Part shown: piece after piece, positions 34,265 through 46,924 of the stretch | Layout: each line of letters begins with the position of its first letter | How positions within the stretch are numbered: the stretch's first letter is position 1 | Assembly: GCF_000025525.1 (NCBI RefSeq) | Contig: NC_013887.1 | Span: 1,312,729-1,376,728, forward strand | Direction: 5' to 3' | Source: Methanocaldococcus sp. FS406-22 | GTDB lineage: Archaea; AGJL01; Methanococci; Methanococcales; Methanocaldococcaceae | Length of the DNA: 64,000 nt | Translations under genes and position numbers: made by a program | Notes under the pieces: generated by a model | What the model saw: only the letters and a program-made list of their open reading frames with translations | Database searches by the model: none | What the model was told of the DNA's origin: nothing

Positions 34265-35368
34265 TTATTCATTTCTCAATGCCTTTATTGGGTCTAATTT
34301 TGATGCCTTATATGCAGGGTATAAAGCAGAGATTAAAGCAGTTAAAATTCCAAACATAATGCCAATTATCATATAAAATATTACATAATAGGATAGTGAT
34401 GTTTTTAATAAATAATGAACAATCAAATAACCAAAGAATAAACTCAAAAATGCTCCAATTAAGGAGCCAATAACTCCCAAAATTAATGCTTCATATAAAA
34501 ACATCATAATAATATCTTTTTTTGAAGCTCCAATACTCCTCATTACCCCAATTTCTTTAGTTCTTTCAACAACACTCATTAGCATAACATTTCCAATTCC
34601 AATACCAGCAACTAATAAAGAGATAGCCCCAATTCCCATTAAAAAGTAAGAAACCTTAGTTATAACTCCATTAATCGCCTCCAATATAGAGTTTAGCGAG
34701 ATAATAATGCATTTTTTCTCCTTTCTATTTAGGATTTTATCAGTTTCATTTTTTATTTTGTCAATATCATTTATGTTTTTAACATATAGAATTATCCTTG
34801 AATAATTATAATTATTTTCGCCATAAAACCTTCTGTATGTTTTTGCAGTTAAAATTATTGAATTATCTGGAAATAAAAATGTGCTGTTATATATTCCACA
34901 TATCCTTAGGGATATATTCTTTATTTCCAGTTGATCTCCAATATCAACATCATTTGCACTTGAAAAAAATGTATCAACAGCAGCAGAGGTATCAGAAACC
35001 TTTACTTTTAAATTAAGGTAGTTTATATCATTTTTATCAATGCCAAAGATATTCGTATAAGCTCTCCTGTTCTTTCCTTTTATATAAACAAAATCAGAAG
35101 TGGCATAAATGGGAATAACCTTACAATTTAAAACTCTCAGTTTATCAACATCCTTTTTATCAAATGAAGTGTATCCATTTTGATAATTTGGAAAAACTAT
35201 TATGTAGTTAGATATACTCCCTAAATTTTCCATAATTCCTTGCTTTAGTCCTCCACCTAATATTCCCAATGAAGAGATTGCCGCAACCCCTATTATAATT
35301 CCCATCAATGCCAAAATACTCCTCAATAAATTTCTTCTTAGATTTCTCTTTGCCAATTCGAAATACAT
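34265..35368 (-). CDS. MacB/LolC-type ABC transporter permease (FtsX domain)
   Basis: 367 aa. N-terminal transmembrane helix (LRRNLLRSILALMGIIIGVAAISSL split over 8-32), a large extracytoplasmic MacB periplasmic-core-like domain (residues ~35-235), then three C-terminal helices with the FtsX signature GIGIGNVMLMSVVERTKEIG and MRSIGASKKDI. The ATPase gene is two genes upstream in the same operon. This architecture couples ATP hydrolysis to extracytoplasmic events such as peptide or lipoprotein release rather than classical import. From memory it equals MJ0797. Confidence 0.88.
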   Translation of the reverse strand: MYFELAKRNLRRNLLRSILALMGIIIGVAAISSLGILGGGLKQGIMENLGSISNYIIVFPNYQNGYTSFDKKDVDKLRVLNCKVIPIYATSDFVYIKGKNRRAYTNIFGIDKNDINYLNLKVKVSDTSAAVDTFFSSANDVDIGDQLEIKNISLRICGIYNSTFLFPDNSIILTAKTYRRFYGENNYNYSRIILYVKNINDIDKIKNETDKILNRKEKKCIIISLNSILEAINGVITKVSYFLMGIGAISLLVAGIGIGNVMLMSVVERTKEIGVMRSIGASKKDIIMMFLYEALILGVIGSLIGAFLSLFFGYLIVHYLLKTSLSYYVIFYMIIGIMFGILTALISALYPAYKASKLDPIKALRNE

Positions 35369-35380
35369 GTTTTCACATCT

Positions 35381-35785
35381 TTAATCTTTATTAAGTCTTT
35401 CAAAAACATTTAAAAGATAGAAAAAGAGTGCTAATGCTGTATATACTCCCATACTTGGAATATGTTTGGTAAAAAATGTCATTCCTAAAAATAAAGCAAT
35501 CCCTAAAATAAAGAAAATGCCAAAGAATTTTAAAGAGAACTTTGCAAAGTCCTTAACTTTTCCTTTGGAACAATAATAGGTAGAAATTGATAATGATAAA
35601 AGAAACCCAATAATTGAAACAAAGTCGTTAAACCTTTGTAAATTTGCCATATCCGCTGGATAAACAATATATTTCCCAATAAAATGATAAACAACTTCGT
35701 TAATAACTACAACAATAAAAATATATAACCCTATTCCCAAAATAACTGCTTTCCCTTTATCAAAATTTGAAACACTGCTTATCAT
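35381..35785 (-). CDS. Small membrane protein between ABC ATPase and permease
   Basis: 134 aa, four predicted transmembrane segments (AVILGIGLYIFIVVVINEV, VSIIGFLLSLSISTYYCS, LKFFGIFFILGIALFLGMT, MGVYTALALFFYLLNVF). Unrecognised family. Its ATG overlaps the ABC ATPase stop (ATGA), and the permease follows after 12 bp, so it probably belongs to the transporter. Confidence 0.6.
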   Translation of the reverse strand: MISSVSNFDKGKAVILGIGLYIFIVVVINEVVYHFIGKYIVYPADMANLQRFNDFVSIIGFLLSLSISTYYCSKGKVKDFAKFSLKFFGIFFILGIALFLGMTFFTKHIPSMGVYTALALFFYLLNVFERLNKD

Positions 35786-36468
35786 AATTTCTCCTCTTTC
35801 TCTATCTCCCCATCTTTTAAATAAATAATCCTATCTCCAAATTTAGCCACGTTTATGTCATGAGTTACAACAATAATGGTTTTTCCGTTTTCATTTAGTT
35901 TTTTTAGTAGTTTCATTATTTTTTCTCCAGTTTTGCTATCTAAGGCTCCTGTTGGTTCATCTGCCAATATAATTGGTGGATTGTTTGCTAAAGCCCTTGC
36001 TATAGCAACTCTTTGCTGTTGCCCTCCACTCAATTGATTTGGCTTGTGATTGGCAAACCTCTCATCCAACTCAGCCATTTTTAAACACTCCAAAGCCCTC
36101 TTTTTCCTTTCCTCTTCACTCATAGCACCTCTGTATTTAAAAATCAGTGGAAGTTCAACATTCTCCAAAGCAGTTAGTATTGGGATTAAATTAAATTGCT
36201 GAAAGACAAAACCAATTTTATTTCTTCTGATTTTTGTTAATTCATCATCATCTAAGTCATTTGTTTTTACATTATCAATATAAACCTCCCCCTCTGTTGG
36301 TTTGTCCAAGCAACCAATAATATTTAGAAGGGTAGATTTTCCACTTCCAGAAGGTCCCATGATAGAAACAAACTCCCCCTCTTTTATCTCTAAATCAACA
36401 TTTTTTAAAGCATAAATAATCTCTTCTCCCATTTTATAGGTTTTTGTCACATTTTTAAGTTTAATCAT
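35782..36468 (-). CDS. ABC transporter ATP-binding protein, LolD/MacB type (MJ0796-like)
   Basis: 228 aa with all ABC motifs: Walker A GPSGSGKSTLLNIIG, Q-loop FVFQQFNLIPIL, signature LSGGQQQRVAIARALANNP, Walker B IILADEPTGALDS with intact catalytic Glu, and H-loop VVTHDINVAKF. The sequence closely resembles the structurally studied MJ0796 nucleotide-binding subunit. It pairs with the permease at 34265. The operon also holds a secreted-peptide gene at its head, which suggests a role in peptide export or self-protection; that link is inference. Confidence 0.93.
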   Translation of the reverse strand: MIKLKNVTKTYKMGEEIIYALKNVDLEIKEGEFVSIMGPSGSGKSTLLNIIGCLDKPTEGEVYIDNVKTNDLDDDELTKIRRNKIGFVFQQFNLIPILTALENVELPLIFKYRGAMSEEERKKRALECLKMAELDERFANHKPNQLSGGQQQRVAIARALANNPPIILADEPTGALDSKTGEKIMKLLKKLNENGKTIIVVTHDINVAKFGDRIIYLKDGEIEKEEKL

Positions 36469-36481
36469 AAATATCCCAAAA

Positions 36482-36994
36482 TTAGATTATTTCATTTATC
36501 GTTATTTTCTTAGGAATGCCTTTAATTTTTAATATTGTAATGTTTTTATTCTCATCTACAACTTTTTCAATTTCTTCCCAACTGCAAAATGCCATGCCCT
36601 CAATCAATATTCCTTTTTCATAGATTTTTATATGCAACGTTCTATGTAGTTCTGAAATCACCAATCCAGTCGCCAATATTAAAAACATAAGATAATTAGC
36701 ATACGGAACTCTAAAGAAATAAGCTACATAAGTAAAAATTAAAATTAACACTAAGCCAAATATAAAATAAATCCAACTTCCCATTTTTCCCTTAACTTCT
36801 TTTTTAAAGGTTCCTTTATCTACCTTTAACAGTTTTTTCTGGTTATGCATCAATATTAAGGTAATTACTAATAAACTTCCAAAAACTATTGAGATAGGCA
36901 AAAATATTGACTTAAATATTGTAATGGAAACTATTATAAAAATAATCAACGGGATTGGGACAATATAAAAGTAAAATGGATTTATCCCTCTCAT
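36482..36994 (-). CDS. Membrane protein with C-terminal PH-like domain
   Basis: 170 aa: two N-terminal helices (FYIVPIPLIIFIIVSITIF, LPISIVFGSLLVITLIL), two central ones (WIYFIFGLVLILIFTYV, YLMFLILATGLVIS) and a soluble end HIKIYEKGILIEGMAFCSWEEIEKV with LKIKGIPKKITI. A clear paralogue at 52036 in the hcg region shares MxGINPxY, YENGVVIDGLAFYDWKEIEK and LKIKGIPKEI. Function unknown. Overlaps the CARDB gene by 4 bp. Confidence 0.65.
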   Translation of the reverse strand: MRGINPFYFYIVPIPLIIFIIVSITIFKSIFLPISIVFGSLLVITLILMHNQKKLLKVDKGTFKKEVKGKMGSWIYFIFGLVLILIFTYVAYFFRVPYANYLMFLILATGLVISELHRTLHIKIYEKGILIEGMAFCSWEEIEKVVDENKNITILKIKGIPKKITINEII

Positions 36995-38514
36995 GATTCC
37001 ACCCTTTTCCTTGCAAACCCTCTATAAATCAAATATATTACTCCAATGCAGAATAAAACCCCTATTCCTACCACAATATAGTTAATACCCCCTTTATTGT
37101 TATTTTTTAAGGAAATAACTTCTCTGTCAATTTTTATTGTCTTATAAATGGCTATTAAATTGTTATTTTCATCTCTATAGGTTATTTTAATTGGAATTTC
37201 ACTTACAGTTCCATTGATTTGGCAGTGTAATTCAAAACTTCCATAATCATCGGGATTTAACGTCCCTACAAAGTAGTTTTCATAAGGTTTTTTTGGAATG
37301 ATATTTTTTGTTTTTATTACATATATTAAGACGCTCTTTGCCTTTCCAGTTCCGATATTGTCTATATCTCCAGTTATTTTAACATCATCAAACGAGCTTT
37401 CTACATCAATTCCACTTAAAACTAAATCTGCCTTTCCTACAACATTTATTGTTAGATTTTCCTCTATTTGGTTATTATCAAAATATACAGTTATAGGAAT
37501 CCCTATTATTCCTTCTTTATCAACTTTTATTTTGAAAGTTACATTTTTTGTCTCTCCTTTTTTAATAAATACTATTTTTTGATTATCTCCTACAAAGTAT
37601 TTGTTTATCTGAACTACAAAGAGAGAATCTTTATAATTATTTTTTATTGAAATTGTTAGATTTTCTATCTTTCCAACTGTAATCGTTGGATTTTTAATAT
37701 TTATTGAAATTGAATTATATGGAAATACATTGAAGGTTAAGATTCCTGTCTCTTCAACTATATTTTTGTTTTGATAGGTTAGAGTTTCAGTTTTTGAGTC
37801 CCCATTTATTGTCTCTGATTTTTGAGTCAGTTCTAATAAGTCATAAGGATTTTTGTAGGTTATTTTATAATTTAGAGAGTAAATTCCTTCTTTTTTAGCA
37901 AATATTGTTAGTGGAACATAAGTGGAGGTTTCTGGATTTAAAGAAGGTATTATAAAAGTGTTATCCCCTAAAATTACTAAATTATCTGAATTTTGAAACT
38001 CTACTTTGATATTCTCAGCTACTCCAGTCCCTTTATTTGTCAGTAGTAAAAGAATTTTATTAGTTCCTACTTTTAAGATATTGTTATTGGACGTTATAAT
38101 TAAATTTGCCTTTCCTCTCACTGGAAGGGTAAAGATTCTATTTTCAGAGTATTGTTGATTATCTTTTGTATAGTTACAATAAACAACCATTTCATAATCG
38201 TAATTTGTTGCATTAGGGCTAACTTTTATTATAAAGTGAGCTACTCCATATTCGTAAGGGAAAAGATGTCCAATCCATTGTTCTCCTTTAATAATTTTGA
38301 TATTTTCTTTGGATATGGAATTATATGGTTTTATATATATGATAGTATTGTTAATTTCTTTATCTGATTCAATCGTTATGTATAAATCATAAGTTTTTGA
38401 TGGTTCTAAGTATTGAGCTTTATAATCAATATTTTTGAATGTTATATAAGCAAAAGAGTTAGTTAAAAGAAATAAAAACAAAAAGATAATAAATAGGTTT
38501 TTCAATCCTTTCAT
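36991..38514 (-). CDS. Secreted CARDB-type (COG1361-like) surface protein with C-terminal anchor
   Basis: 507 aa. Signal peptide NLFIIFLFLFLLTNSFA, then repeated beta domains of the CARDB/NPCBM-associated kind (NKILLLLTNKGTGVAENIKV, PTITVGKIENLTISIKNNY, DIDNIGTGKAKSVLIYVI), ending in a transmembrane helix GINYIVVGIGVLFCIGVIYLI and a basic tail RGFARKRVES. So it is anchored with the bulk outside. Such proteins accompany MacB-like transporters in archaea. ATG 38514 is preceded by GAGGGAGAGG; TTG 38526 is the alternative. Confidence 0.8.
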   Translation of the reverse strand: MKGLKNLFIIFLFLFLLTNSFAYITFKNIDYKAQYLEPSKTYDLYITIESDKEINNTIIYIKPYNSISKENIKIIKGEQWIGHLFPYEYGVAHFIIKVSPNATNYDYEMVVYCNYTKDNQQYSENRIFTLPVRGKANLIITSNNNILKVGTNKILLLLTNKGTGVAENIKVEFQNSDNLVILGDNTFIIPSLNPETSTYVPLTIFAKKEGIYSLNYKITYKNPYDLLELTQKSETINGDSKTETLTYQNKNIVEETGILTFNVFPYNSISINIKNPTITVGKIENLTISIKNNYKDSLFVVQINKYFVGDNQKIVFIKKGETKNVTFKIKVDKEGIIGIPITVYFDNNQIEENLTINVVGKADLVLSGIDVESSFDDVKITGDIDNIGTGKAKSVLIYVIKTKNIIPKKPYENYFVGTLNPDDYGSFELHCQINGTVSEIPIKITYRDENNNLIAIYKTIKIDREVISLKNNNKGGINYIVVGIGVLFCIGVIYLIYRGFARKRVES

Positions 38515-38527
38515 CCTCTCCCTCAAT

Positions 38528-39181
38528 TTATAAGAATTTTATTACACTGTATAGTTGATATAAACCAAATATTATTGTTGGAATTAGAGCTGTTATAAAT
38601 GCCTTCTTTAAGTCCAAGTTTCTTGCATATTTAATTGCATAAGTCCATATATATAAATTCCATAGGGTAATACCAAAGCCAATTATTGTGTTGGTGTATA
38701 TTAAAGTTTTAGGGATTATCTGCTTTATAGCCATTTGAACAATTACTGGATTTTGCATTTGAGCTATAGTTAATGGTTGAACATGAACTTGTGATAGAAA
38801 GTAATAAGCAATAGGAATTGTTATTAAAGCTCCAATTATATTTGGTAGAAATCCATATCCAGTGAAGGAAAGAGTTTTCTTAAAGCTTCCTTTTCCTTTA
38901 AAAGCCATTGATATAAGATACATAACCCCTGCTATAATCAACCATGAGACAATTCCTCCAACAAATGATGATATCAATCCAATAATTTTTACAAAAGCCA
39001 TCATCTGTTGATATTGTGGTGGGAAGATTTTATATATTGCTGAAGTTGATATATAGGCAGAGATTGCTATTAGTATAGAGAAAATTAGAACAATTAAAAA
39101 TGGCTCTTTTAGAGAAACTTCTTTTTGAGATAGTTTTTTAAAGAAAGCATCTGGATTTGTTAAAGCCTCTATTATCTGCAT
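38528..39181 (-). CDS. Yip1-family membrane protein
   Basis: 217 aa with the Yip1 layout: an N-terminal amphipathic EALTNPDAFFKKLSQKEVSL (NPxxFF), then five transmembrane helices including WLIIAGVMYLISMAFKGKGS, FTGYGFLPNIIGALITIPIA and ALIPTIIFGLYQLYSVIKF. It sits 13 bp upstream of the CARDB gene; ATG 39181 follows GGGTGATATTA. Often found beside COG1361 proteins and MacB transporters in archaea. Confidence 0.8.
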   Translation of the reverse strand: MQIIEALTNPDAFFKKLSQKEVSLKEPFLIVLIFSILIAISAYISTSAIYKIFPPQYQQMMAFVKIIGLISSFVGGIVSWLIIAGVMYLISMAFKGKGSFKKTLSFTGYGFLPNIIGALITIPIAYYFLSQVHVQPLTIAQMQNPVIVQMAIKQIIPKTLIYTNTIIGFGITLWNLYIWTYAIKYARNLDLKKAFITALIPTIIFGLYQLYSVIKFL

Positions 39182-39238
39182 TAATATCACCCATTAGATT
39201 TTTCAATGTTTTATATCATTTTTCCCAATATTTAAATC

Positions 39239-39796
39239 TTATGTTAGTAGGTAGTTGGCTATCTTTGGAGTAATATAAACTTCTATAAAAGCGGCTATAA
39301 CTATTAGAATTATTGATATTATTGCTAATTTTAAGAATTCTCTAATATCTTCATTAGCTATTGGTTTTTCTTTCTTATCTAAGAGATAAAGAACTATCTC
39401 ATAAGGAATTTTAAAGCCTGCTACTGCTGATATCAATATGGCTGGAATTTCGAATATTCCATGTGGAAGTATTAAAGCTAAGATTAATTTTACAGGCATT
39501 CCGCTGTTATAGGTATCAGAAACCAATAAACCAAGATTAAATCCATTGTATATTAGGTTTATAAAAGTGGATAAACCGAAGGTTATTGCTCCAGCTAACA
39601 TTAGGAAAATAACTTTTAAGTTGTTAGTTAGTATTAAAGTTAAAGGTGCTGGGGTAAATTTAGATAAAATTATACAATTTTCATCTTTTAGATTATTTTT
39701 ATCACCATAGTTAATATTCATTATCAAAGCTGGAACTAATCCAAAAATAAATAGTAGAGCAGCTAAAATTAACAATATCACATCAAGTCTTTTCAT
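39239..39796 (-). CDS. SpoIIM/DUF95 family membrane protein, cassette 1
   Basis: 185 aa, about five transmembrane segments. LTNNLKVIFLMLAGAITFGL, NLIYNGFNLGLLV and LILPHGIFEIPAILISAVAG are the DUF95 (stage II sporulation protein M) signatures. DUF95 proteins occur in circular bacteriocin clusters, where they act in maturation, secretion or immunity. The last ~76 residues are identical but for one position to the cassette-2 copy at 41883, at DNA level as well, while the first 110 diverge. It follows the 121-aa gene by 13 bp in the operon headed by the glycine-zipper peptide. Confidence 0.85.
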   Translation of the reverse strand: MKRLDVILLILAALLFIFGLVPALIMNINYGDKNNLKDENCIILSKFTPAPLTLILTNNLKVIFLMLAGAITFGLSTFINLIYNGFNLGLLVSDTYNSGMPVKLILALILPHGIFEIPAILISAVAGFKIPYEIVLYLLDKKEKPIANEDIREFLKLAIISIILIVIAAFIEVYITPKIANYLLT

Positions 39797-39809
39797 AATA
39801 ATTACCTAA

Positions 39810-40175
39810 TCACAATGTATCTTGTATAGTTTTACCAATAAATTTATAGTATGTCCTATATCTAATCAAATATATTAAATACAGATATATAGCAGTTGAA
39901 ATAACTAAAGCTAGTATATTGAATTTCGTATAATATACTAATACTATAACTGGTATGGCAAGAATTATATCCAATATCATAAATACTACAGTACTTCTAT
40001 GACCAAGCATTTTCTCATGTTTATATTGAACAAAATTTGCCAATATGCTCATAATATTTTTGTTAGATAATCCCAGTTTATCCTTAAATTTTATATAGAT
40101 AGCTAAATCAACTAGTAATGGAAATACAATCGCCATAAGAATTACATACAGTGACGTTGCATAATCCAAATTCAT
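39810..40175 (-). CDS. Small membrane protein, cassette 1 (candidate immunity protein)
   Basis: 121 aa, three to four transmembrane segments (YVILMAIVFPLLVDLAIYI, VVFMILDIILAIPVIVLVYY, ILALVISTAIYLYLIYLI) with basic loops. No family recognised. It lies between the secreted peptide gene and DUF95, the same slot occupied by an unrelated 161-aa membrane protein in cassette 2. That position suggests a peptide-specific partner, for instance immunity; inference from context. GGTGATATT precedes the ATG. Confidence 0.6.
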   Translation of the reverse strand: MNLDYATSLYVILMAIVFPLLVDLAIYIKFKDKLGLSNKNIMSILANFVQYKHEKMLGHRSTVVFMILDIILAIPVIVLVYYTKFNILALVISTAIYLYLIYLIRYRTYYKFIGKTIQDTL

Positions 40176-40229
40176 AATATCACCAAAAAATTAAAATAAA
40201 AATATTGAGAATGATTTTTAAAGTTTAAA

Positions 40230-40547
40230 CTAAAATGCACCTACTGCAGCACCAATTATTGCACCTTCTGGCCCTGCCAGTGCTCCTATTTCAGCACCAA
40301 TAGTCATTCCAGCTCTCCATCCAATTCTTCCACCTAAATATGAACCAACATGTCCTGCTCCTTTTATTACATATTCATTGTCAGATAATTTTTCACCAAC
40401 ATATGTCCCTGCTTTATCTCCTAACTTATGTCCTAAATACCATCCAACATCTCCCAAAGCCACTGGCTCAGCTACTAAGGCTCCTACCATGCTTACCAAA
40501 ACTATTGCCCCAAAAATCTTATATACTCCCTTCTCTAAAAATTTCAT
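40230..40547 (-). CDS. Secreted glycine-zipper peptide precursor, archaeocin candidate 1
   Basis: 105 aa. Residues 1-32 (MKFLEKGVYKIFGAIVLVSM then VGALVAEPVALG) form a Sec-like leader with basic start and hydrophobic core. The 73-residue remainder is Gly-rich: WYLGHKLGDKAGTYVGEK, GHVGSYLGGRIGWRAGMTIG and GALAGPEGAIIGAAVGAF, an extended GxxxG glycine zipper typical of membrane-inserting peptides and close in size to circular bacteriocins. The leader is nearly identical to that of the peptide at 42963, the core unrelated. ATG 40547 follows AGGTGGCAAT; an in-frame ATG at 40574 lies upstream of that site. First gene of the operon to 34265. Confidence 0.8.
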   Translation of the reverse strand: MKFLEKGVYKIFGAIVLVSMVGALVAEPVALGDVGWYLGHKLGDKAGTYVGEKLSDNEYVIKGAGHVGSYLGGRIGWRAGMTIGAEIGALAGPEGAIIGAAVGAF

Positions 40548-40551
40548 ATTG

Positions 40552-40568
40552 CCACCTCTGTATGGTGG
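40552..40568 (-). promoter_or_regulatory. Hairpin masking the ribosome binding site of peptide 1
   Basis: In the mRNA, CCACC pairs with GGTGG of the AGGTGG ribosome binding site across a 7-nt loop (ATACAGA). The start codon lies 5 nt downstream. The cassette-2 leader has a hairpin in the same place with a wholly different stem. Confidence 0.6.
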
Positions 40569-40583
40569 TTCCACTACCCTTTA

Positions 40584-40617
40584 TTGGCTCAGCTCCATAT
40601 AGGAGCGTCATCGCCAA
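40584..40617 (-). promoter_or_regulatory. Kink-turn in the 5' leader of peptide 1
   Basis: The mRNA strand reads stem TTGGC, then GATGAC, stem GCTCC, loop TATAT, stem GGAGC, then TGA, stem GCCAA. Between the two helices, one strand has GAT-GA-C and the other T-GA: a three-base bulge followed by tandem G.A pairs, which is the kink-turn consensus, also readable as a C box (GATGA) and D box (CTGA). Kink-turns are bound by L7Ae. The sequence is identical at 43280-43313. Confidence 0.65.
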
Positions 40618-40675
40618 CTATTTTTAATTTTTTTAAAGAGTATTTTAACACATCTTTTTAACGCCCTTATCATTT

Positions 40676-40755
40676 TCCACGTTTTTCGTAAATGTAATAA
40701 TACAAATACTACTATATATACATATCGATTTAAATTAAATAGTAAAGTATAAATA
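40676..40755 (-). promoter_or_regulatory. Promoter block of cassette 1
   Basis: A conserved block shared with 43363-43442 and 44725-44810. It includes TATTTATACTTTACTATTTA, then TTTAAATCGATATG and the TATA box TGTATATATAG (40722-40712). Expected start of transcription is near 40688, giving a leader of about 140 nt that contains the kink-turn and the masked ribosome binding site. The rest of the gap 40548-40808 is the leader itself. Confidence 0.65.
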
Positions 40756-40808
40756 TGGAAATAGATTACCTACTAGAAAACTTAATAACTATAAAAAAGT
40801 AAAGTGAT

Positions 40809-41822
40809 TTACTTTAAAATTTCTCTTATGGCATACCACTTTTTTACAGAAGTCGGCTTTACAATACCATTAATCACATCATAAAATAGAATCTCATTTT
40901 TAATTAAAAATTTAACCTCATTCATGAGATTGTTTTTTATAATTTCACTAATATCAATTTTTATTTTATCTTTAAATAATTTTAAGGTATTAACTAACCT
41001 CTTCATCTCAAACTCCTTTTGAGTAGATATTAAATATAAAATCTTATCCCTCTCAATATTAATCCACTGCTTTATAGTCTCTTCAACTGATAAACCCAAT
41101 TTTTTATTATTTATTAATTGGGAGATTTCATAAGGTAAGGATAGATAATTTAAGGCATAATTAATCTCTTCCTCATTAAAACCCTCCTCTTTTAAAATCT
41201 CTCTTATAGTTCCTTTTCTTAACCAATCAATTAGATAATATTCGGAAGTATTTTCTAAAGTAGAGTTTTGATATATCTCTTCAATAAATAAGGTATCAGA
41301 AGTTATACAAATAACATGGCACAAATGCTCCATTTTAGTCAGAGAGACAAAGAGGTTAAATAGTTCATTTAATAAGGATTTTCCCCCATTAAAGTAGATA
41401 TTTTTTAATTTCTGTAATTCATCAATTATTAAAACTGGCTTTTTTCCATCTTCAACAACAGCATTTATTGATTCATTTATCTCAGCAAATACATCATTCA
41501 AACTTAAGTTATTAAAATCAAAATTCTTCTCAATCCCAAACTTACAAACCCCTAAGTTGAGTTCTAATTTATTCAACAGATATTTCTTATCAGATTTTTC
41601 AAAAAACACTCTTAAAAACTCCTCCTTACTATAAGTAGCATATTTTCTTAGATTGTAATAGAAAAACACTATATCACTGTTTTCTAAATCTTTAATAACT
41701 CTTCTCATTACAGTTGATTTACCAGATGATTTTGGGCCGTAAACGAATAAAATAGAGTTTGGTTCTAATTGGCAATATGTTTTTAGATAGTTAAGTTCTT
41801 TTTCTCTATTGTAGAATTTCAT
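40809..41822 (-). CDS. Archaeal P-loop ATPase (PF01637-like), copy E
   Basis: 337 aa, strongly similar to the gene at 14693: Walker A YGPKSSGKSTVMRRV, Walker [49 protein letters not shown]. It stands between the two secreted-peptide cassettes with its own GGTGATTTATA ribosome binding site. It may have been inserted there, or may have carried a cassette in. Function unknown. Confidence 0.85.
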   Translation of the reverse strand: MKFYNREKELNYLKTYCQLEPNSILFVYGPKSSGKSTVMRRVIKDLENSDIVFFYYNLRKYATYSKEEFLRVFFEKSDKKYLLNKLELNLGVCKFGIEKNFDFNNLSLNDVFAEINESINAVVEDGKKPVLIIDELQKLKNIYFNGGKSLLNELFNLFVSLTKMEHLCHVICITSDTLFIEEIYQNSTLENTSEYYLIDWLRKGTIREILKEEGFNEEEINYALNYLSLPYEISQLINNKKLGLSVEETIKQWINIERDKILYLISTQKEFEMKRLVNTLKLFKDKIKIDISEIIKNNLMNEVKFLIKNEILFYDVINGIVKPTSVKKWYAIREILK

Positions 41823-41882
41823 TATAAATCACCACAAAAAATAGATTTTATCTTAATTATAAAGCATAATTGTATTTAAATC

Positions 41883-42440
41883 TTATGTTAGTAGGTAGTT
41901 GGCTATCTTTGGAGTAATATAAACTTCTATAAAAGCGGCTATAACTATTAGAATTATTGACATTATTGCTAATTTCAAGAATTCTCTAATATCTTCATTA
42001 GCTATTGGTTTTTCTTTCTTATCTAAGAGATAAAGAACTATCTCATAAGGAATTTTAAAGCCTGCTACTGCTGATATCAATATGGCTGGAATTTCGAATA
42101 TTCCATGGGGAAGTATGGTTATTAGAATATATTTTAAATCTGCACCAATAAAAAATAGACCTTTAACTTCAAGACCAATAACAAAACCATTATAAAGCAT
42201 ATTAACAAAAGTGGTGAATCCAAACAAAACACTCCCAGATAAGTTTATTAATATAACTTTTAAGTTGTTTGTTAAAATACCTAAAAAAGTATGCGGAAAT
42301 ATTATGTTAATATCAATCTTTGGAAAGTTATTGGACGTTGGTATTTTTGTAAAGAATCCTATAATAAATGATATAGAAAATAAAAAAACTGGTAGAATGT
42401 AGTAGGATTTTAGTTTTTTGATTAGTTCTTTGAAGAGCAT
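41883..42440 (-). CDS. SpoIIM/DUF95 family membrane protein, cassette 2
   Basis: 185 aa. N-terminal half is its own (YYILPVFLFSISFIIGFF, VILINLSGSVLFGFTTFVNM); from ILPHGIFEIPAILISAVAG onward it is almost identical to the 39239 product in protein and DNA, continuing about 10 bp past the stop codon. About five transmembrane segments. The start overlaps the upstream 161-aa gene by 19 bp. Same role as its paralogue expected: maturation, secretion or immunity of the peptide at 42963. Confidence 0.85.
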   Translation of the reverse strand: MLFKELIKKLKSYYILPVFLFSISFIIGFFTKIPTSNNFPKIDINIIFPHTFLGILTNNLKVILINLSGSVLFGFTTFVNMLYNGFVIGLEVKGLFFIGADLKYILITILPHGIFEIPAILISAVAGFKIPYEIVLYLLDKKEKPIANEDIREFLKLAIMSIILIVIAAFIEVYITPKIANYLLT

Positions 42441-42907
42441 TGAGATTCACCAAATTTAACTCCTAATTCATTTATATTCTTTATAATTTTTAATATTGAC
42501 AAGTATTCTCCAAATAATGCTCCAAATAAAACCCCTGGAATGTATATTGCCCAAAATACTATAATACTAAACGTTATAGTGTTAAATAGTAATATAGATG
42601 ATAATATAGCAAGAATTAAAGAAATTAAGAATATCTTATTTAGTACGGCTTTAGAAAAATCTTTTATTATTTTAGAAATGGAATCCCCACTATCAATATA
42701 TTTCAACTTATCTCTCCAATAATATATTCCATACCCAACTCCAATACAGAATGCAGTTATATACATGTGAACGGTAATTGGATTAAATTGGATATATACA
42801 TTAAAAATTTTGCCCATATAAATAACTAAAAAGAACATAAATACTGCAAATATCGGACATAGGATTATCATATAATATGCATCTCTTTTATAGGAATTCA
42901 AATCCAT
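42422..42907 (-). CDS. Small membrane protein, cassette 2 (candidate immunity protein)
   Basis: 161 aa, about four transmembrane segments (YYMIILCPIFAVFMFFLVIY, ITVHMYITAFCIGVGYGIYY, FLISLILAILSSILLFNTI, SIIVFWAIYIPGVLFGALF), ending GESQCSSKN. No family recognised and no similarity to the 121-aa protein in the same slot of cassette 1. ATG 42907 has GGGGTGTTATT upstream; the longer frame from 42961 is unlikely. Immunity or processing role inferred from position. Confidence 0.6.
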   Translation of the reverse strand: MDLNSYKRDAYYMIILCPIFAVFMFFLVIYMGKIFNVYIQFNPITVHMYITAFCIGVGYGIYYWRDKLKYIDSGDSISKIIKDFSKAVLNKIFLISLILAILSSILLFNTITFSIIVFWAIYIPGVLFGALFGEYLSILKIIKNINELGVKFGESQCSSKN

Positions 42908-42962
42908 AATAACACCCCAAAAAATAAAAAATGGATTTCTAAATAATATTTCCCAATACAAA

Positions 42963-43244
42963 TTAAATGGCTACACCACAAGCTGCTGGTATAATACCCA
43001 CAGGACCTGCACATAATCCTGCTCCTATTAATTCACAAGCTACACAACAATCGTAAGCAGTAAATGGGGCTAGTATTGCCATACTGGTATAATGATGCCC
43101 CTTATATTCTTCATAATTAATGTATGCTTCAGCAGCTAATTTACTATTCCCCAAAGCCACTGGCTCAGCTACTAAGGCACTTACCATGCTTACCAAAACT
43201 ATTGCCCCAAAAACCTTATATACTCCCTTATCTAAAAATTTCAT
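42963..43244 (-). CDS. Secreted Cys-containing hydrophobic peptide precursor, archaeocin candidate 2
   Basis: 93 aa. The first 32 residues (MKFLDKGVYKVFGAIVLVSM then VSALVAEPVALG) repeat the leader of peptide 1 with four changes. The 61-residue core is unrelated: polar start NSKLAAEAYINYEEYKGHHY, then AYDCCVACELIGAGLC and AGPVGIIPAACGVAI. Five Cys in a hydrophobic Gly/Ala-rich tail resemble Cys-rich archaeal bacteriocins of the halocin C8 kind in general character, not in alignable sequence. ATG 43244 follows AAGGTGGGCAAT. Confidence 0.8.
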   Translation of the reverse strand: MKFLDKGVYKVFGAIVLVSMVSALVAEPVALGNSKLAAEAYINYEEYKGHHYTSMAILAPFTAYDCCVACELIGAGLCAGPVGIIPAACGVAI

Positions 43245-43245
43245 A

Positions 43246-43272
43246 TTGCCCACCTTTTTAGTTGGTTGGCAA
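43246..43272 (-). promoter_or_regulatory. Hairpin masking the ribosome binding site of peptide 2
   Basis: TTGCCAACC pairs with GGTGGGCAA (8 of 9 positions) across a 9-nt loop, enclosing the GGTGG ribosome binding site two bases before the ATG. Stem sequence differs from that at 40552, structure is the same. Confidence 0.65.
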
Positions 43273-43279
43273 TTCCGAA

Positions 43280-43313
43280 TTGGCTCAGCTCCATATAGGA
43301 GCGTCATCGCCAA
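43280..43313 (-). promoter_or_regulatory. Kink-turn in the 5' leader of peptide 2
   Basis: Identical over 34 nt to the element at 40584-40617, with the same upstream ~35 nt. Beyond the kink-turn the two leaders diverge until the ribosome binding site. Confidence 0.65.
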
Positions 43314-43362
43314 CTATTTTTAATTTTTTTAAAGAGTATTTTAATAACCTATCTAATAGCCC

Positions 43363-43442
43363 TTATTATTTTTCATAAACATAATAATGTAAAACTCCTA
43401 TATATATACATATCGATTTAAATTAAATAGTAAAATATAAAT
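43363..43442 (-). promoter_or_regulatory. Promoter block of cassette 2
   Basis: Second copy of the block at 40676: TATTTATATTTTACTATTTA, TTTAAATCGATATG and TATA box TGTATATATATAG (about 43411-43399). It also marks the gap between peptide 2 and the 57-aa gene at 43518. Confidence 0.65.
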
Positions 43443-43517
43443 AGTAAATTTCCCTCCTGTTAAGAAATCTAATAAGTTAATTATAATAATTAAATTTATA
43501 AAATTAAATAGAATTTA

Positions 43518-43691
43518 TTATTTATAGAATTTGTATATCAACATCATTATCTCGAATAAAGCCATAATAACCAATAATCCCATAATCCATGTTTTATAAG
43601 GTAGTTCTAAATTAAACATTAAAATAAGTAAAACCCCAAATAGGAAATACCAAATACTCCAATATAACCTATATTTTTTGTTGTTATTCAT
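43518..43691 (-). CDS. Very small membrane protein (57 aa)
   Basis: ATG 43691 behind AAGGTGATATT opens 57 codons: YWSIWYFLFGVLLILMFNL and KTWIMGLLVIMALFEIMMLI are two transmembrane helices, with basic ends (NNNKKYR, YKFYK). No known family. Too short for most gene callers but has a perfect ribosome binding site and follows the next upstream gene by 11 bp, so it is likely translated. Confidence 0.65.
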   Translation of the reverse strand: MNNNKKYRLYWSIWYFLFGVLLILMFNLELPYKTWIMGLLVIMALFEIMMLIYKFYK

Positions 43692-43702
43692 AATATCACC
43701 TT

Positions 43703-43978
43703 CTATATATTTAAAAAAATTAAAGCTAAATTTCCCAATAATGGCCCAATATAAGCCAGTGTAATAATAAATAGAGTTAGCTTTTTCCCAAATGTTTTGT
43801 ACATTTTCAAATAACCTCTTTTATATATTGCAAAGAATCCTAAACCTAAATATATAATAAAAATATTGATAATAGATAATGGTTTTGTTTTAAGATAATA
43901 TAAATTTAGAGCTATTAAAAACACTCAGTAAGCATTACCAATATTGCCATAAATTTTTCTTAGTTTTACATTATTCAT
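43703..43978 (-). pseudogene. Small membrane protein gene with in-frame TGA at codon 18
   Basis: From ATG 43978, which overlaps the stop of the preceding gene (TAATG), the frame reads NNVKLRKIYGNIGNAY, hits TGA at 43927-43925, and continues VFLIALNLYYLKTKPLSI, FIIYLGLGFFAIYKRGY, LTLFIITLAYIGPLLGNLAL to a stop at 43703: 91 residues in all, three transmembrane helices. Most likely a Trp codon changed to a stop. Readthrough as selenocysteine is possible in this genus but unsupported. A GTG at 43924 could restart a 73-aa product, without ribosome binding site. Confidence 0.6.
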
Positions 43979-44181
43979 TATTTCCCCATTGTTTGATTAT
44001 TTTCTCGTGATTTGCAATTTAATATCCATAAGGTATCAACTATTATCACAAAAATCAGAAATAATATATTTAAATATACGCTTTTAAAATTATATGACAA
44101 AAGAAGAGTTATAATTATGGTATTTATTGTTAGAAATTGAAAGTATTTTTTACGTTTCTCATTACATTTTTGTTCACTCAT
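43978..44181 (-). CDS. Small membrane protein (67 aa)
   Basis: ATG 44181 behind AGGTGAAGACA. Charged start SEQKCNEKRKKYFQ, then two helices (LTINTIIITLLLSY, VYLNILFLIFVIIVDTLWIL) and a polar tail. Unrecognised. Translationally coupled to the following interrupted gene through TAATG. Confidence 0.6.
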   Translation of the reverse strand: MSEQKCNEKRKKYFQFLTINTIIITLLLSYNFKSVYLNILFLIFVIIVDTLWILNCKSRENNQTMGK

Positions 44182-44228
44182 TGTCTTCACCTAAAAATAA
44201 ATTATGTTATTGGAATATAGGCAAAAAT

Positions 44229-44690
44229 TCATCCTACGATGTTATTTGATTTTTTGAGTATGTTGTAACCTATAGAAAAACAAATGCCGCCTCCATAGCT
44301 TAATATGGATAAGATAATCACGCTTTCTATTTGAGTGGATGATATTGGCACCAATATAAGATATTTAATTAATACTGCTGAGAATATAACGACTAATGGA
44401 AATGAAAATAAAAATATTTTAAAAAATTTTTCAATCCTATTTTTTTCAAATATGACATACTTTCCAATATCTCCATTCAATAGAATTTTTGATAAATAAA
44501 ACCCAATTAATATGCCAATTGCAAATAAAACCACTGAAACATTAAATATATTTTTTAATAAGCCCCAACCATAATTTAAATAAAAATTAGAAACCAATAT
44601 TGGAATAACCCATAATAATATACCCTCAACCATTAAGCTTATTCCAACAGTAATTGGACTATTCATCCATGAATAAGCAATATCTCCCAT
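44229..44690 (-). CDS. Membrane protein (153 aa), first gene behind the third promoter block
   Basis: Four to five transmembrane segments (ISLMVEGILLWVIPILVSNF, NVSVVLFAIGILIGFYLS, IFLFSFPLVVIFSAVLI, VIILSILSYGGGICFSIGYN). No family recognised. It stands where the peptide genes stand in the other two transcription units, but has no secretion leader, kink-turn or masked ribosome binding site. Heads a run of three to four tiny membrane genes. Confidence 0.6.
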   Translation of the reverse strand: MGDIAYSWMNSPITVGISLMVEGILLWVIPILVSNFYLNYGWGLLKNIFNVSVVLFAIGILIGFYLSKILLNGDIGKYVIFEKNRIEKFFKIFLFSFPLVVIFSAVLIKYLILVPISSTQIESVIILSILSYGGGICFSIGYNILKKSNNIVG

Positions 44691-44724
44691 AATATCCCAT
44701 TTAATGATTACTTAATGCCCCCTA

Positions 44725-44810
44725 TTATTTTTCACATTTTTTATAAATTAAAATAATACAAAATCCTTATATATGCATATCGATTTGAATTAAATAGCTA
44801 AGTATAAAAA
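44725..44810 (-). promoter_or_regulatory. Third copy of the cassette promoter block
   Basis: TTTTTATACTTAGCTATTTA, TTCAAATCGATATG and TATA box TGCATATATAAG (about 44778-44768) repeat the blocks at 40676 and 43363. Conservation runs on through AAAAATAATAGGGGGC and then stops. Confidence 0.6.
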
Positions 44811-44916
44811 GGAAATAACCTTCCTGATAAAAAACTTAACTATATAAAAAAGTAAGCTATTATTTAATTTTTGATAAATCGATAGGAATTTTTCATGGTT
44901 TCACTTAAGTTATATC

Positions 44917-45666
44917 TTAATAATCGATATTATCCCTAATTTTTTTAATGAAACTTAGCATTTCAACGTAAATCCATATAAGTGTCACTAACAAAGAAAA
45001 TGCACAATACCATTCAAAATCTTTTGGAAATTGGTTTTTAATCATCGTTTCAATCATATCAAAATCCAATAATAGATTTAATGATGCAACTGTCCCTACA
45101 AATAAACTAAAACCAATTCCTACCGCACCACTTTTAAATGTTGGCAAGTAAATGCCCGAAATCGCCAATATAAAAGATATAAAGTAAAATATCGCAATTC
45201 CAAGAGTTGTAGAAATGATCACTACTTTAAATTTACTGGTAACCTCAATAATCCTATATTTGTATATAAGAAACATTATTAAAAAGATACCAAATGTCAT
45301 GAACAATGCTTGAGACACTATTCCCTCATATGATGATTCAAAAATTTGTGAGATTACTCCAATGCTTAACCCCTCAACAATTGCATATATTGGAGATAAA
45401 TATTTCACAAGTTTAGGATTATTATATTCAAAATATGCCCAAACAAATAAAATTAACATAATAATTGCTCCCATAGCTCCAGTTAAAACCATAAGTAGTG
45501 GTGAGTGAATATAATAAAATGAAAATATTGCTGATGCTAATGTAATCAAAATTAGAATCAATGATTTATTTATAGTACCATTTACTGTCATAAATTCTTT
45601 ATTATTTGTTTTGAAAATATCTATATTATTTAAGTCTAATACACGTTTTAATAATAAGTTAGACAT
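44917..45666 (-). CDS. Bax inhibitor-1/YccA-type membrane protein
   Basis: 249 aa with seven predicted transmembrane helices. NKEFMTVNGTINKSLILIL at the start and YLSPIYAIVEGLSIGVISQI fit the archaeal/bacterial BaxI_1 branch of the TMBIM family; LLLDFDMIETMIKNQ and KDFEWYCAFSLLVTLIWIYV near the end carry the acidic residues of the putative Ca2+/H+ path. It has its own GGAGGGTATAA ribosome binding site. A membrane-stress or leak-channel protein beside secreted pore-like peptides is suggestive but unproven. Confidence 0.8.
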   Translation of the reverse strand: MSNLLLKRVLDLNNIDIFKTNNKEFMTVNGTINKSLILILITLASAIFSFYYIHSPLLMVLTGAMGAIIMLILFVWAYFEYNNPKLVKYLSPIYAIVEGLSIGVISQIFESSYEGIVSQALFMTFGIFLIMFLIYKYRIIEVTSKFKVVIISTTLGIAIFYFISFILAISGIYLPTFKSGAVGIGFSLFVGTVASLNLLLDFDMIETMIKNQFPKDFEWYCAFSLLVTLIWIYVEMLSFIKKIRDNIDY

Positions 45667-45712
45667 TTATACCCTCCTTTCTATGATTGGTATTATTATT
45701 GATTTTTCATCC

Positions 45713-46204
45713 CTAATAAACGATAACAATGACATGTTTTCCGTTCTTTTCTATATTTTTAATGTATTCTTTTAATCCTTTTAAATTGTGTATTATTTTT
45801 TTGAATGTTATTTTTTCAACTGGGCTAAATATAATCTTTGCAAATTTATCTGCAATATTCTTTTTCTTAAGCACAAACCTTAATATCGCATCTATTGGCA
45901 GCAATAACACAACCAATAACGAAAAAATAAGGATTAGTAACATATCACTATATTTACAATTATCCATACATTCGGATGCTTCGCTATCTTCAACATTATA
46001 ATAACTGATTTCTATTCTATGGTTTTTAAGTGTTTCTTCTATTTCTTTAAGCATTTCTTCCAATCCAGATTCTTTAAATAAATTGGGATCTGGACAATAA
46101 CCGAATTCCACTAAAATTACTTTTGAATTCTTTTGTTTAGCTAATTCGCTGATAATTTTATCCATTTTCTCATAAAAATCAACTATAGGCAAATACTCAG
46201 CCAT
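45713..46204 (-). CDS. Unrecognised protein with central membrane segment
   Basis: 163 aa. Soluble N-terminal half (IVDFYEKMDKIISELAKQKN, VILVEFGYCPDPNLFKESGL, EASECMDNCKYSD with paired Cys), one hydrophobic stretch LLILIFSLLVVLLLPIDAIL, and a basic C-terminal half. ATG 46204 follows GGGGATGAAA. Family unknown. Lies 46 bp upstream of the Bax-inhibitor gene on the same strand. Confidence 0.5.
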   Translation of the reverse strand: MAEYLPIVDFYEKMDKIISELAKQKNSKVILVEFGYCPDPNLFKESGLEEMLKEIEETLKNHRIEISYYNVEDSEASECMDNCKYSDMLLILIFSLLVVLLLPIDAILRFVLKKKNIADKFAKIIFSPVEKITFKKIIHNLKGLKEYIKNIEKNGKHVIVIVY

Positions 46205-46222
46205 TTTCATCCCCATGTTAAT

Positions 46223-46426
46223 TTAAAGAGTTATCTTTTTTAATGTAGCTATTGCCACACATGTGCTCATTGTGATTATGAACAATACCACGAAAGTCAT
46301 GTATGTAAAAAATCTCCAATTATACACTACAGTCAAGAATATACCAACTATTAAATATATCTTAACCAAAATCCATAAAAAAACTATATTCAATAAGTTA
46401 GATTTTTTGTATTTTTTCCATTGCAT
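46223..46426 (-). CDS. Small membrane protein (67 aa)
   Basis: Two transmembrane helices (NIVFLWILVKIYLIVGIFLT, YMTFVVLFIITMSTCVAIAT) with a basic start QWKKYKKS. No clear ribosome binding site, so the start and even expression are uncertain; it is kept because it fits the tight array of membrane genes on this strand. The following gap to 46606 is AT-rich and holds nothing I can support. Confidence 0.45.
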   Translation of the reverse strand: MQWKKYKKSNLLNIVFLWILVKIYLIVGIFLTVVYNWRFFTYMTFVVLFIITMSTCVAIATLKKITL

Positions 46427-46606
46427 AGAGTAATATTTTTATAGCATGCCCCATAAAGACACCAATAGATATTTATTCTAACCAATTTTTATTGAAGTCG
46501 TTTTTATAATTAAGAATGATGCCAACATCTTCTAAATTCAATAAAAGTTGATTACTTTAAAATAATTACATTATAATCCTCTTAGTTACGTATAGAAATT
46601 AATTAT

Positions 46607-46924
46607 TTATTCTTTATTTTTAAAGATTTTTATAATTATGTTTAAGCTTAAATGATATATTGCTAAAAATATAGCCACGATTGTTGCACCTAAGAAATAT
46701 AAGATTAAAGAATTTGGACTAAAACCCTCACTTGCAATAAAATCACTGCTATATTTCATTACAATAAATGAAAGCCCTATAGGTATTACAAATCGGTAAA
46801 TAACTTCAAAATCACTTAATTTTATATGGCTGTTTTTATTTAATTTTTTCATTAATGAATTATATAGTAAAACACTAACTAATACTGAAACTATGATTAC
46901 AATCATTGCAAATATATTTTCCAT
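46607..46924 (-). CDS. Membrane protein (105 aa)
   Basis: Three transmembrane helices (IFAMIVIIVSVLVSVLLY, VIYRFVIPIGLSFIVMKY, SLILYFLGATIVAIFLAIYH). AAGGAGGGATT is a strong ribosome binding site before the ATG. Unrecognised. Divergent from argH and last of the accessory block. Confidence 0.6.
   Translation of the reverse strand: MENIFAMIVIIVSVLVSVLLYNSLMKKLNKNSHIKLSDFEVIYRFVIPIGLSFIVMKYSSDFIASEGFSPNSLILYFLGATIVAIFLAIYHLSLNIIIKIFKNKE

Follow-up and report, generated by a model that had tools for sequence, protein, structure and literature searches.

Why should two neighbouring genes of one archaeal genome begin with almost the same 32 codons and then continue as unrelated proteins? The question is raised by a window of 64,000 nucleotides (the whole stretch analysed; NC_013887.1, positions 1,312,729 to 1,376,728) from Methanocaldococcus sp. 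FS406-22, where two cassettes lie on the minus strand, each consisting of a 5' untranslated region (5'UTR) with a leader and a core, then a small membrane protein (the partner), then a DUF95/SpoIIM protein. We consider it likely, judging from the sequences, that these are toxin-immunity cassettes of a bacteriocin-like kind and that exchange takes place between their constant ends. From the minus strand of 38500-44500 we place their parts as follows (G and L numbers are our handles for genomes and loci):

40545..40621, minus strand: cassette 1 5'UTR, matching the R1 covariance model at E 5e-21, with a kink-turn hairpin at 40586-40615 and then a hairpin masking the Shine-Dalgarno (SD) sequence GGTGG
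40452..40547, minus strand: cassette 1 leader, a predicted signal peptide of 32 residues
40230..40451, minus strand: cassette 1 core, 73 residues, glycine-zipper-like, candidate peptide toxin; relatives in G008, G005, G007, G003, G016 and G024
39810..40175, minus strand: cassette 1 membrane partner, 121 residues, candidate immunity protein; core-less orphan homologue in G013
39239..39796, minus strand: cassette 1 DUF95/SpoIIM gene (PF01944, E 2e-29), variable up to codon ~109 and constant after it
43242..43317, minus strand: cassette 2 5'UTR (R1 covariance model, E 9e-20), with a kink-turn hairpin at 43282-43311 and an SD-masking hairpin
43149..43244, minus strand: cassette 2 leader
42963..43148, minus strand: cassette 2 core, 61 residues, five Cys
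42422..42910, minus strand: cassette 2 membrane partner, ~162 residues, candidate immunity protein, without a family match
41883..42440, minus strand: cassette 2 DUF95/SpoIIM gene (PF01944, E 5e-31)

The two leaders (MKFLEKGVYKIFGAIVLVSMVGALVAEPVALG in cassette 1, MKFLDKGVYKVFGAIVLVSMVSALVAEPVALG in cassette 2; preferred start codons ATG at 40547 and ATG at 43244) are 91% identical. The initial annotation of this DNA had recognised the shared 32-residue leader and counted four residue changes; three residues differ within the 32, and the fourth is residue 33 (D/N), the first of the core. Its description of the rest agrees with ours: the cores are unrelated, the first rich in glycine with zero Cys and the second with five; the partners have no BLAST match to each other; and both third genes score above the PF01944 cut-off. 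DNA identity between the cassettes is 70% far upstream, 86% in the 5'UTR and 95% in the leader, then 47% in the core, 50% in the partner and 55% in the 5' part of the DUF95 gene, before reaching 99% over the last 213 nucleotides of that gene and returning to 55-60% beyond its stop. Because identity rises again in the DUF95 3' end, the exchanged block is constant at both ends. The earlier description had seen the 5' one; the constant DUF95 3' end had escaped it, as had the 5'UTR structure, the orphan partners and the transporter operon described below.

These cassettes are not confined to one strain. We searched a panel of 36 Methanococci genomes, one per species, of which 14 belong to the genus. 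The leader, whose search in Methanocaldococcus genomes had been proposed as a check, is present in 10 of these 14, and a profile search found it in 16 of the 36 genomes, with at most seven matches per genome, and in none of the seven genomes of genus g4; its recurrence in genomes of the genus and of the class excludes chance. Tandem arrays of leader-core, partner and DUF95 genes occur in G003, G006, G015, G020 and G030. Across cassettes, the cores are 47-98 residues long and mostly hydrophobic, many starting D/N-hydrophobic-G, and the partners have 57-200 residues. At species level the cores vary and the neighbours are conserved, contrary to what the initial annotation had named as grounds for abandoning its idea. 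Viral contigs held no relatives, a search of genome contigs led to a single metagenome-assembled genome, and PADLOC returned only weak matches, to ATPases. Genes resembling toxin-antitoxin systems by eye (HicAB-like, RelE-like, PIN-domain) stand among cassettes at L024 8068-8515, L030 8824-9271, L030 10536-11004 and L027 6636-7320.

The mosaic structure is visible across the panel. Leader identity is 81% within genomes and 56% between them, and core identity is 32% in both comparisons: local homogenisation affects the leaders but not the cores. Within genomes, the N-halves of DUF95 average 41% identity against 88% for the C-halves; tracking of the core by the N-half is weakly supported (correlation 0.32 versus 0.12 for the C-half). 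Cassettes of G006 and G020, genomes of different families, have cores 79% and partners 71% identical under leaders 41% identical. Recombination between the constant ends would be the mechanism by which such mosaics arise.

A hydrophobic partner follows nearly every core, covaries with it, and also exists as orphan copies. We quantified the covariation over 36 cassettes by aligning cores with cores and partners with partners, correcting the scores by shuffling and taking pairs as similar at z above 6. Among 594 between-genome pairs, 12 were similar in both core and partner; a further 40 were alike in the core alone and 1 in the partner alone. The two scores correlate at 0.84, and in 5000 permutations the value of 12 was never reached (permuted maximum, 6). 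Strong relatives among cores (z above 17) mostly have related partners too.

The orphan copies are most evident upstream of the cassettes in transcription order, at 43518-46924, where six of eight genes match cassette partners of other species and no core is present. Control open reading frames gave no such match (0/101 in the rest of the window, 0/338 at other loci). The array reads:

43518..43691, minus strand: orphan partner (candidate spare immunity), matching cassette partners of G003 (E 6e-24) and G007 (E 4e-9)
43703..43924, minus strand: orphan partner, matching a G013 cassette partner (E 9e-15)
43978..44190, minus strand: probable orphan partner, with no cassette partner match below 0.005, 60% identical to L032 6698-6904 and to L024 7266-7469, which takes the place of the partner in a decayed cassette
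44229..44690, minus strand: orphan partner, matching partners of G015 and G020 (E 5e-61)
44917-45666: Bax-inhibitor-1-like membrane protein (PF12811, E 6e-60) inside the array
45713..46216, minus strand: orphan partner, matching partners of G030 (E 5e-35) and G020 (E 1e-13)
46223..46426, minus strand: orphan partner, matching a partner of G020 (E 3e-12)
46607..46924, minus strand: orphan partner, matching the partner of a G003 cassette (E 1e-19)

The reciprocal case exists as well: the cassette 1 partner has an orphan, core-less homologue in G013 (L026 12790-13161, E 2e-29). A partner and DUF95 pair without a core is found at L032 7169-8123, and a Bax-inhibitor-1-like protein is also encoded in the corresponding G013 region (L026 11356-12027). 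A chaperone or export factor that had lost its core would serve no purpose, whereas an orphan antidote still could; this is the main reason why we prefer immunity to the other roles that partners might have. The orphan partners at 43518-46924 are candidate immunity genes against foreign peptides, and toxins displaced one after another would be expected to leave arrays of this kind behind. A parallel comes from the Vibrio cholerae type VI secretion system, for which orphan immunity genes are reported to be retained next to the effector-immunity pair in use (Kirchberger 2017, cited in PMC12483513). The delivery system and proteins there are unrelated, and the cassettes would instead confer membrane immunity to a peptide. 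The proposal in the initial annotation that a core and its cognate immunity gene are swapped between constant ends gains support from core-partner concordance, the orphan partners, the same core under different leaders and the grouping of DUF95.

To which known systems is this one related? A tblastn search of the window DUF95 protein against 72,556 plasmids gave two matches. One is a locus on p2 of Priestia megaterium with four annotated circular bacteriocins and YIP1, ATP-binding cassette (ABC) and MacB-type genes, whose DUF95 is 36-42% identical to that of the cassettes. The other lies on pMETHO01 of Methanomethylovorans (L163 3370-8501) and holds two nearly identical hydrophobic peptides of 66 residues, SpoIIM, YIP1, a CARDB-like protein and ABC genes; it is an unannotated archaeal locus of cassette-like layout outside the Methanococci. 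In the DUF95 tree, the cassette, pMETHO01 and Priestia proteins split from the housekeeping DUF95 of the same archaea with support of 100/99. The cerecyclin cluster comprises precursor, DUF95, immunity, YIP1 and ABC genes (PMC8534725). Circular bacteriocins of the cerecyclin, AS-48 and uberolysin type have, like the cassettes and their operon, a leader, a hydrophobic core (~60-75 residues), the class-defining DUF95/SpoIIM protein, YIP1 and a MacB-type ABC transporter, and also a small hydrophobic immunity protein, to which the partner is a candidate counterpart (PMC8534725, PMC6131525). The cassettes differ in cores unrelated to PF09221/TIGR03651, in showing no CycB/CycD-like pair and in forming swappable units in tandem. 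These two models matched none of the cores scanned, up to E 1-10, whereas the Priestia control peptides match; alignments of cores with the Priestia circular bacteriocins and the pMETHO01 peptides remain within noise (z at most 3.6). Neither window core has a Pfam or NCBIfam family, the Gly-zipper match of the cassette 1 core being below the cut-off. The gene content suggests that the cassettes work like a DUF95-type bacteriocin system, with cores outside the circular-bacteriocin models and ring closure as a candidate step; the computed minus-water ring masses would be ~7330 and 6292 Da, assuming a cut after Gly32. Structure prediction of the cassette 1 precursor with seven relatives (AlphaFold2; pLDDT 49, pTM 0.26) was unusable, and the DUF95 model (pLDDT 78) resembles no PDB fold below E 1, nor does the PDB contain a relative of the protein by sequence.

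Kinship to halocin C8, suggested in the initial annotation, was not borne out, as the cores have no family match. Halocin C8 is likewise archaeal and secreted, with a Cys-rich hydrophobic core, a likeness that extends to one of the two window cassettes (where secretion is predicted); it differs in having no sequence match and in lacking the DUF95 layout. The immunity protein of HalC8 is the N-terminal part of its precursor, whereas the cassette partner is a separate gene. Makarova et al. are said to have listed candidate archaeocins (2019, mBio). A preprint on TMcin proved unrelated to these cassettes.

Downstream of the cassettes lies a Yip1/ABC transporter operon:

38528..39172, minus strand: first gene, Yip1-domain membrane protein, YknW-like (PF04893, E 4e-30)
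36991..38526, minus strand: CARDB-domain protein, predicted to be secreted, with a C-terminal membrane anchor (PF07705, E 5e-9)
36482..36994, minus strand: small membrane protein without a family match
35782..36468, minus strand: ABC ATPase, orthologue of MJ0796 (PDB 1F3O, 1L2T, 3TIF; E 5e-138)
35381..35785, minus strand: small membrane protein
34265..35368, minus strand: MacB/FtsX-type ABC permease, conserved in L027, L029, L032, L091, L097, L099 and L100

The ATP-binding transporter that belongs to circular-bacteriocin clusters is present here as the MJ0796-type ATPase and the MacB-type permease. In M. jannaschii (G004), the ATPase adjoining a cassette is MJ0796 itself (235/235 residues identical); the Yip1 gene beside it (L025 8983-9408) encodes 141 residues, versus 217-220 elsewhere, which suggests a frameshift. 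The Bacillus transporter YknWXYZ, which is of MacB type and includes a Yip1 protein, is an exporter of the hydrophobic SDP peptide toxin and shares with our operon the Yip1-type membrane protein, the MacB-type ATPase and the permease (PMC4887032). Its set also includes a membrane fusion protein (MFP), and no YknX-like MFP was seen here; the Yip1 protein reaches 39 bits against the YknW_fam cut-off of 110, and CARDB and two small membrane proteins stand instead. The secreted CARDB protein, with strong orthologues in 19/36 genomes, likewise takes the place of the Priestia MFP. Cassettes and operon co-occur: 14 genomes have both, 2 only cassettes, 5 only the operon and 15 neither (Fisher p 2.4e-4, uncorrected for phylogeny).

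The same evidence allows other explanations to be weighed. It is unlikely that the cores are intercellular pheromones and the partners their receptors or sensors, orphan partners serving to eavesdrop on neighbours: the covariation and the diversification among lineages would also fit pherotypes, and orphan sensors are conceivable, but the partners carry no recognisable signalling domain, the cores are long and hydrophobic, and DUF95, Yip1 and a MacB-type ABC transporter are a bacteriocin toolkit. We give still less credit to membrane toxin-antitoxin cassettes of the intracellular or addiction type, with an unreleased toxin and the partner as antitoxin; the tight pairing is what such systems show, and other toxin-antitoxin-looking genes lie between cassettes in L024, L028 and L030, yet a conserved signal peptide together with DUF95 and an exporter operon speaks for export, and banks of orphan antitoxins better suit exposure to foreign peptides. 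That the cores are antigenically varying subunits of a surface layer, pilus or adhesin, and the partners something like their chaperones, is most improbable, for although they would be secreted, variable and recombined at constant ends, they lack a class III signal peptide, have DUF95/ABC neighbours throughout and no known pilus or archaellum genes seen at these loci, and would leave core-less orphan partners without purpose.

The cassettes also share a regulatory RNA candidate. Their 5'UTR folds into a hairpin with the GAU-GA / GA internal loop of a standard kink-turn, followed by a hairpin that pairs with the SD sequence. The first has a canonical (C) stem, a 3-nucleotide bulge, tandem G.A pairs and a non-canonical (NC) stem, in the order UUGGC-GAU-GA-N-stem...stem-N-GA-GCCAA. 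GAUGA and GA are invariant in 17 loci and the NC stem pairs covary; the 15 distinct elements include the complementary upper-stem variants GCUCC/GGAGC, GCCUC/GAGGC, GCUUC/GAAGC, GAAUAG/CUAUUC and GGAC/GUCC. Rfam gave no match to the element up to E 1. A genus-wide pattern scan found the kink-turn almost only at cassettes and related secreted-protein genes, and a reversed control pattern found none. Kink-turns in archaeal 5'UTRs are targets of L7Ae, which represses translation, and the kink-turn of the Sulfolobus l7ae mRNA has the same C stem, 3-nucleotide bulge, tandem G.A pairs and position near the ribosome-binding site (PMC5539422). L7Ae may by analogy control the cassette mRNAs, which differ in encoding secreted peptides of Methanococci, in their separate SD-masking hairpin and in the tandem copies of G007 and G013, where one 5'UTR carries two kink-turn hairpins (L029 23-88; L026, G013:C1:312359-312424 and 313770-313835).

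The kink-turn 5'UTR, a related leader or both also precede secreted proteins of 240-390 residues at unlinked loci (L102, L103, L092 on the minus strand, L096, L098), among them one in the genome of the window itself (G000:C1:1281467-1282424, L104 6468-7424, at G000:C1:1281536). Several are followed by a small membrane protein; they may be larger toxins with immunity genes, or unrelated secreted proteins. Further genes for secreted or exported proteins are preceded by a kink-turn hairpin but lack the peptide leader (L110 6591-6649, L107 6419-6493, L108 6516-6607), so the range of the RNA element extends beyond cassettes.

Taken together, the products of each cassette would include a secreted peptide of bacteriocin-like type and the protein that gives immunity to it. 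With its charged start, hydrophobic stretch and L/V-V/F-A|E/T-P cleavage site, the leader resembles a Sec signal peptide, and it would bring the mostly hydrophobic core into the membrane or across it. DUF95 may aid maturation or release, possibly with ring closure as assumed for bacterial circular bacteriocins, and by comparison with YknWXYZ and the circular-bacteriocin clusters the Yip1/CARDB/MJ0796-type ABC operon may extract or export the core and perhaps add self-protection. Covariation and orphan copies point to the membrane partner as the specific immunity protein. Homologous recombination at the 5'UTR plus leader and at the DUF95 3' half would replace the block of core, partner and DUF95 N-half, and displaced cassettes would leave their immunity genes, building the spare bank at 43518-46924. 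The two 5'UTR hairpins, of which the covariation-backed kink-turn may be of the L7Ae-binding kind, probably hold translation in check.

Several observations weigh against this reading. Many cores share only a Gly/Ala-rich C-terminal part and have unrelated partners, and one partner family of G020/G030 goes with two dissimilar cores, so the pairing is not strict. The cores match no bacteriocin family, no dedicated protease was found and the DUF95 tree has long branches. Four Methanococci (G014, G029, G031, G032) have the operon without cassettes; it is therefore probably a resident peptide exporter, with other work or of general use, that cassettes exploit. The fullest version, in which order-wide circular, membrane-active archaeocins, swapping of a core/immunity/DUF95-half block, L7Ae kink-turn gating and export by the MJ0796 transporter all hold jointly, is for us a tentative and rather doubtful proposition.

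One further gene lies between the two cassettes:

40809..41822, minus strand: archaeal ATPase_2, MJ1010-like (PF01637, E 4e-56)

It is probably a passenger. In three genomes, such ATPase_2 genes stand directly 3' of a DUF95 gene cut at ~codon 49 (L026 10030-11334, L028 5797-7043, L029 738-2042), placed as if inserted into the DUF95 genes.

To our knowledge, hardly anything has been documented of warfare by peptides among hyperthermophilic methanogens. On the toxin-immunity reading, one expects toxins with specific antidotes, a bank of spare antidotes and cross-species immunity, and the DUF95-YIP1-ABC bacteriocin toolkit would be extended to archaea. The reading also offers a candidate role in cell physiology for MJ0796, which is widely used as a model ABC ATPase although its PDB entries still call it hypothetical or uncharacterised, and through the kink-turn element in the 5'UTR a ribosomal protein may be linked to the control of secreted weapons.

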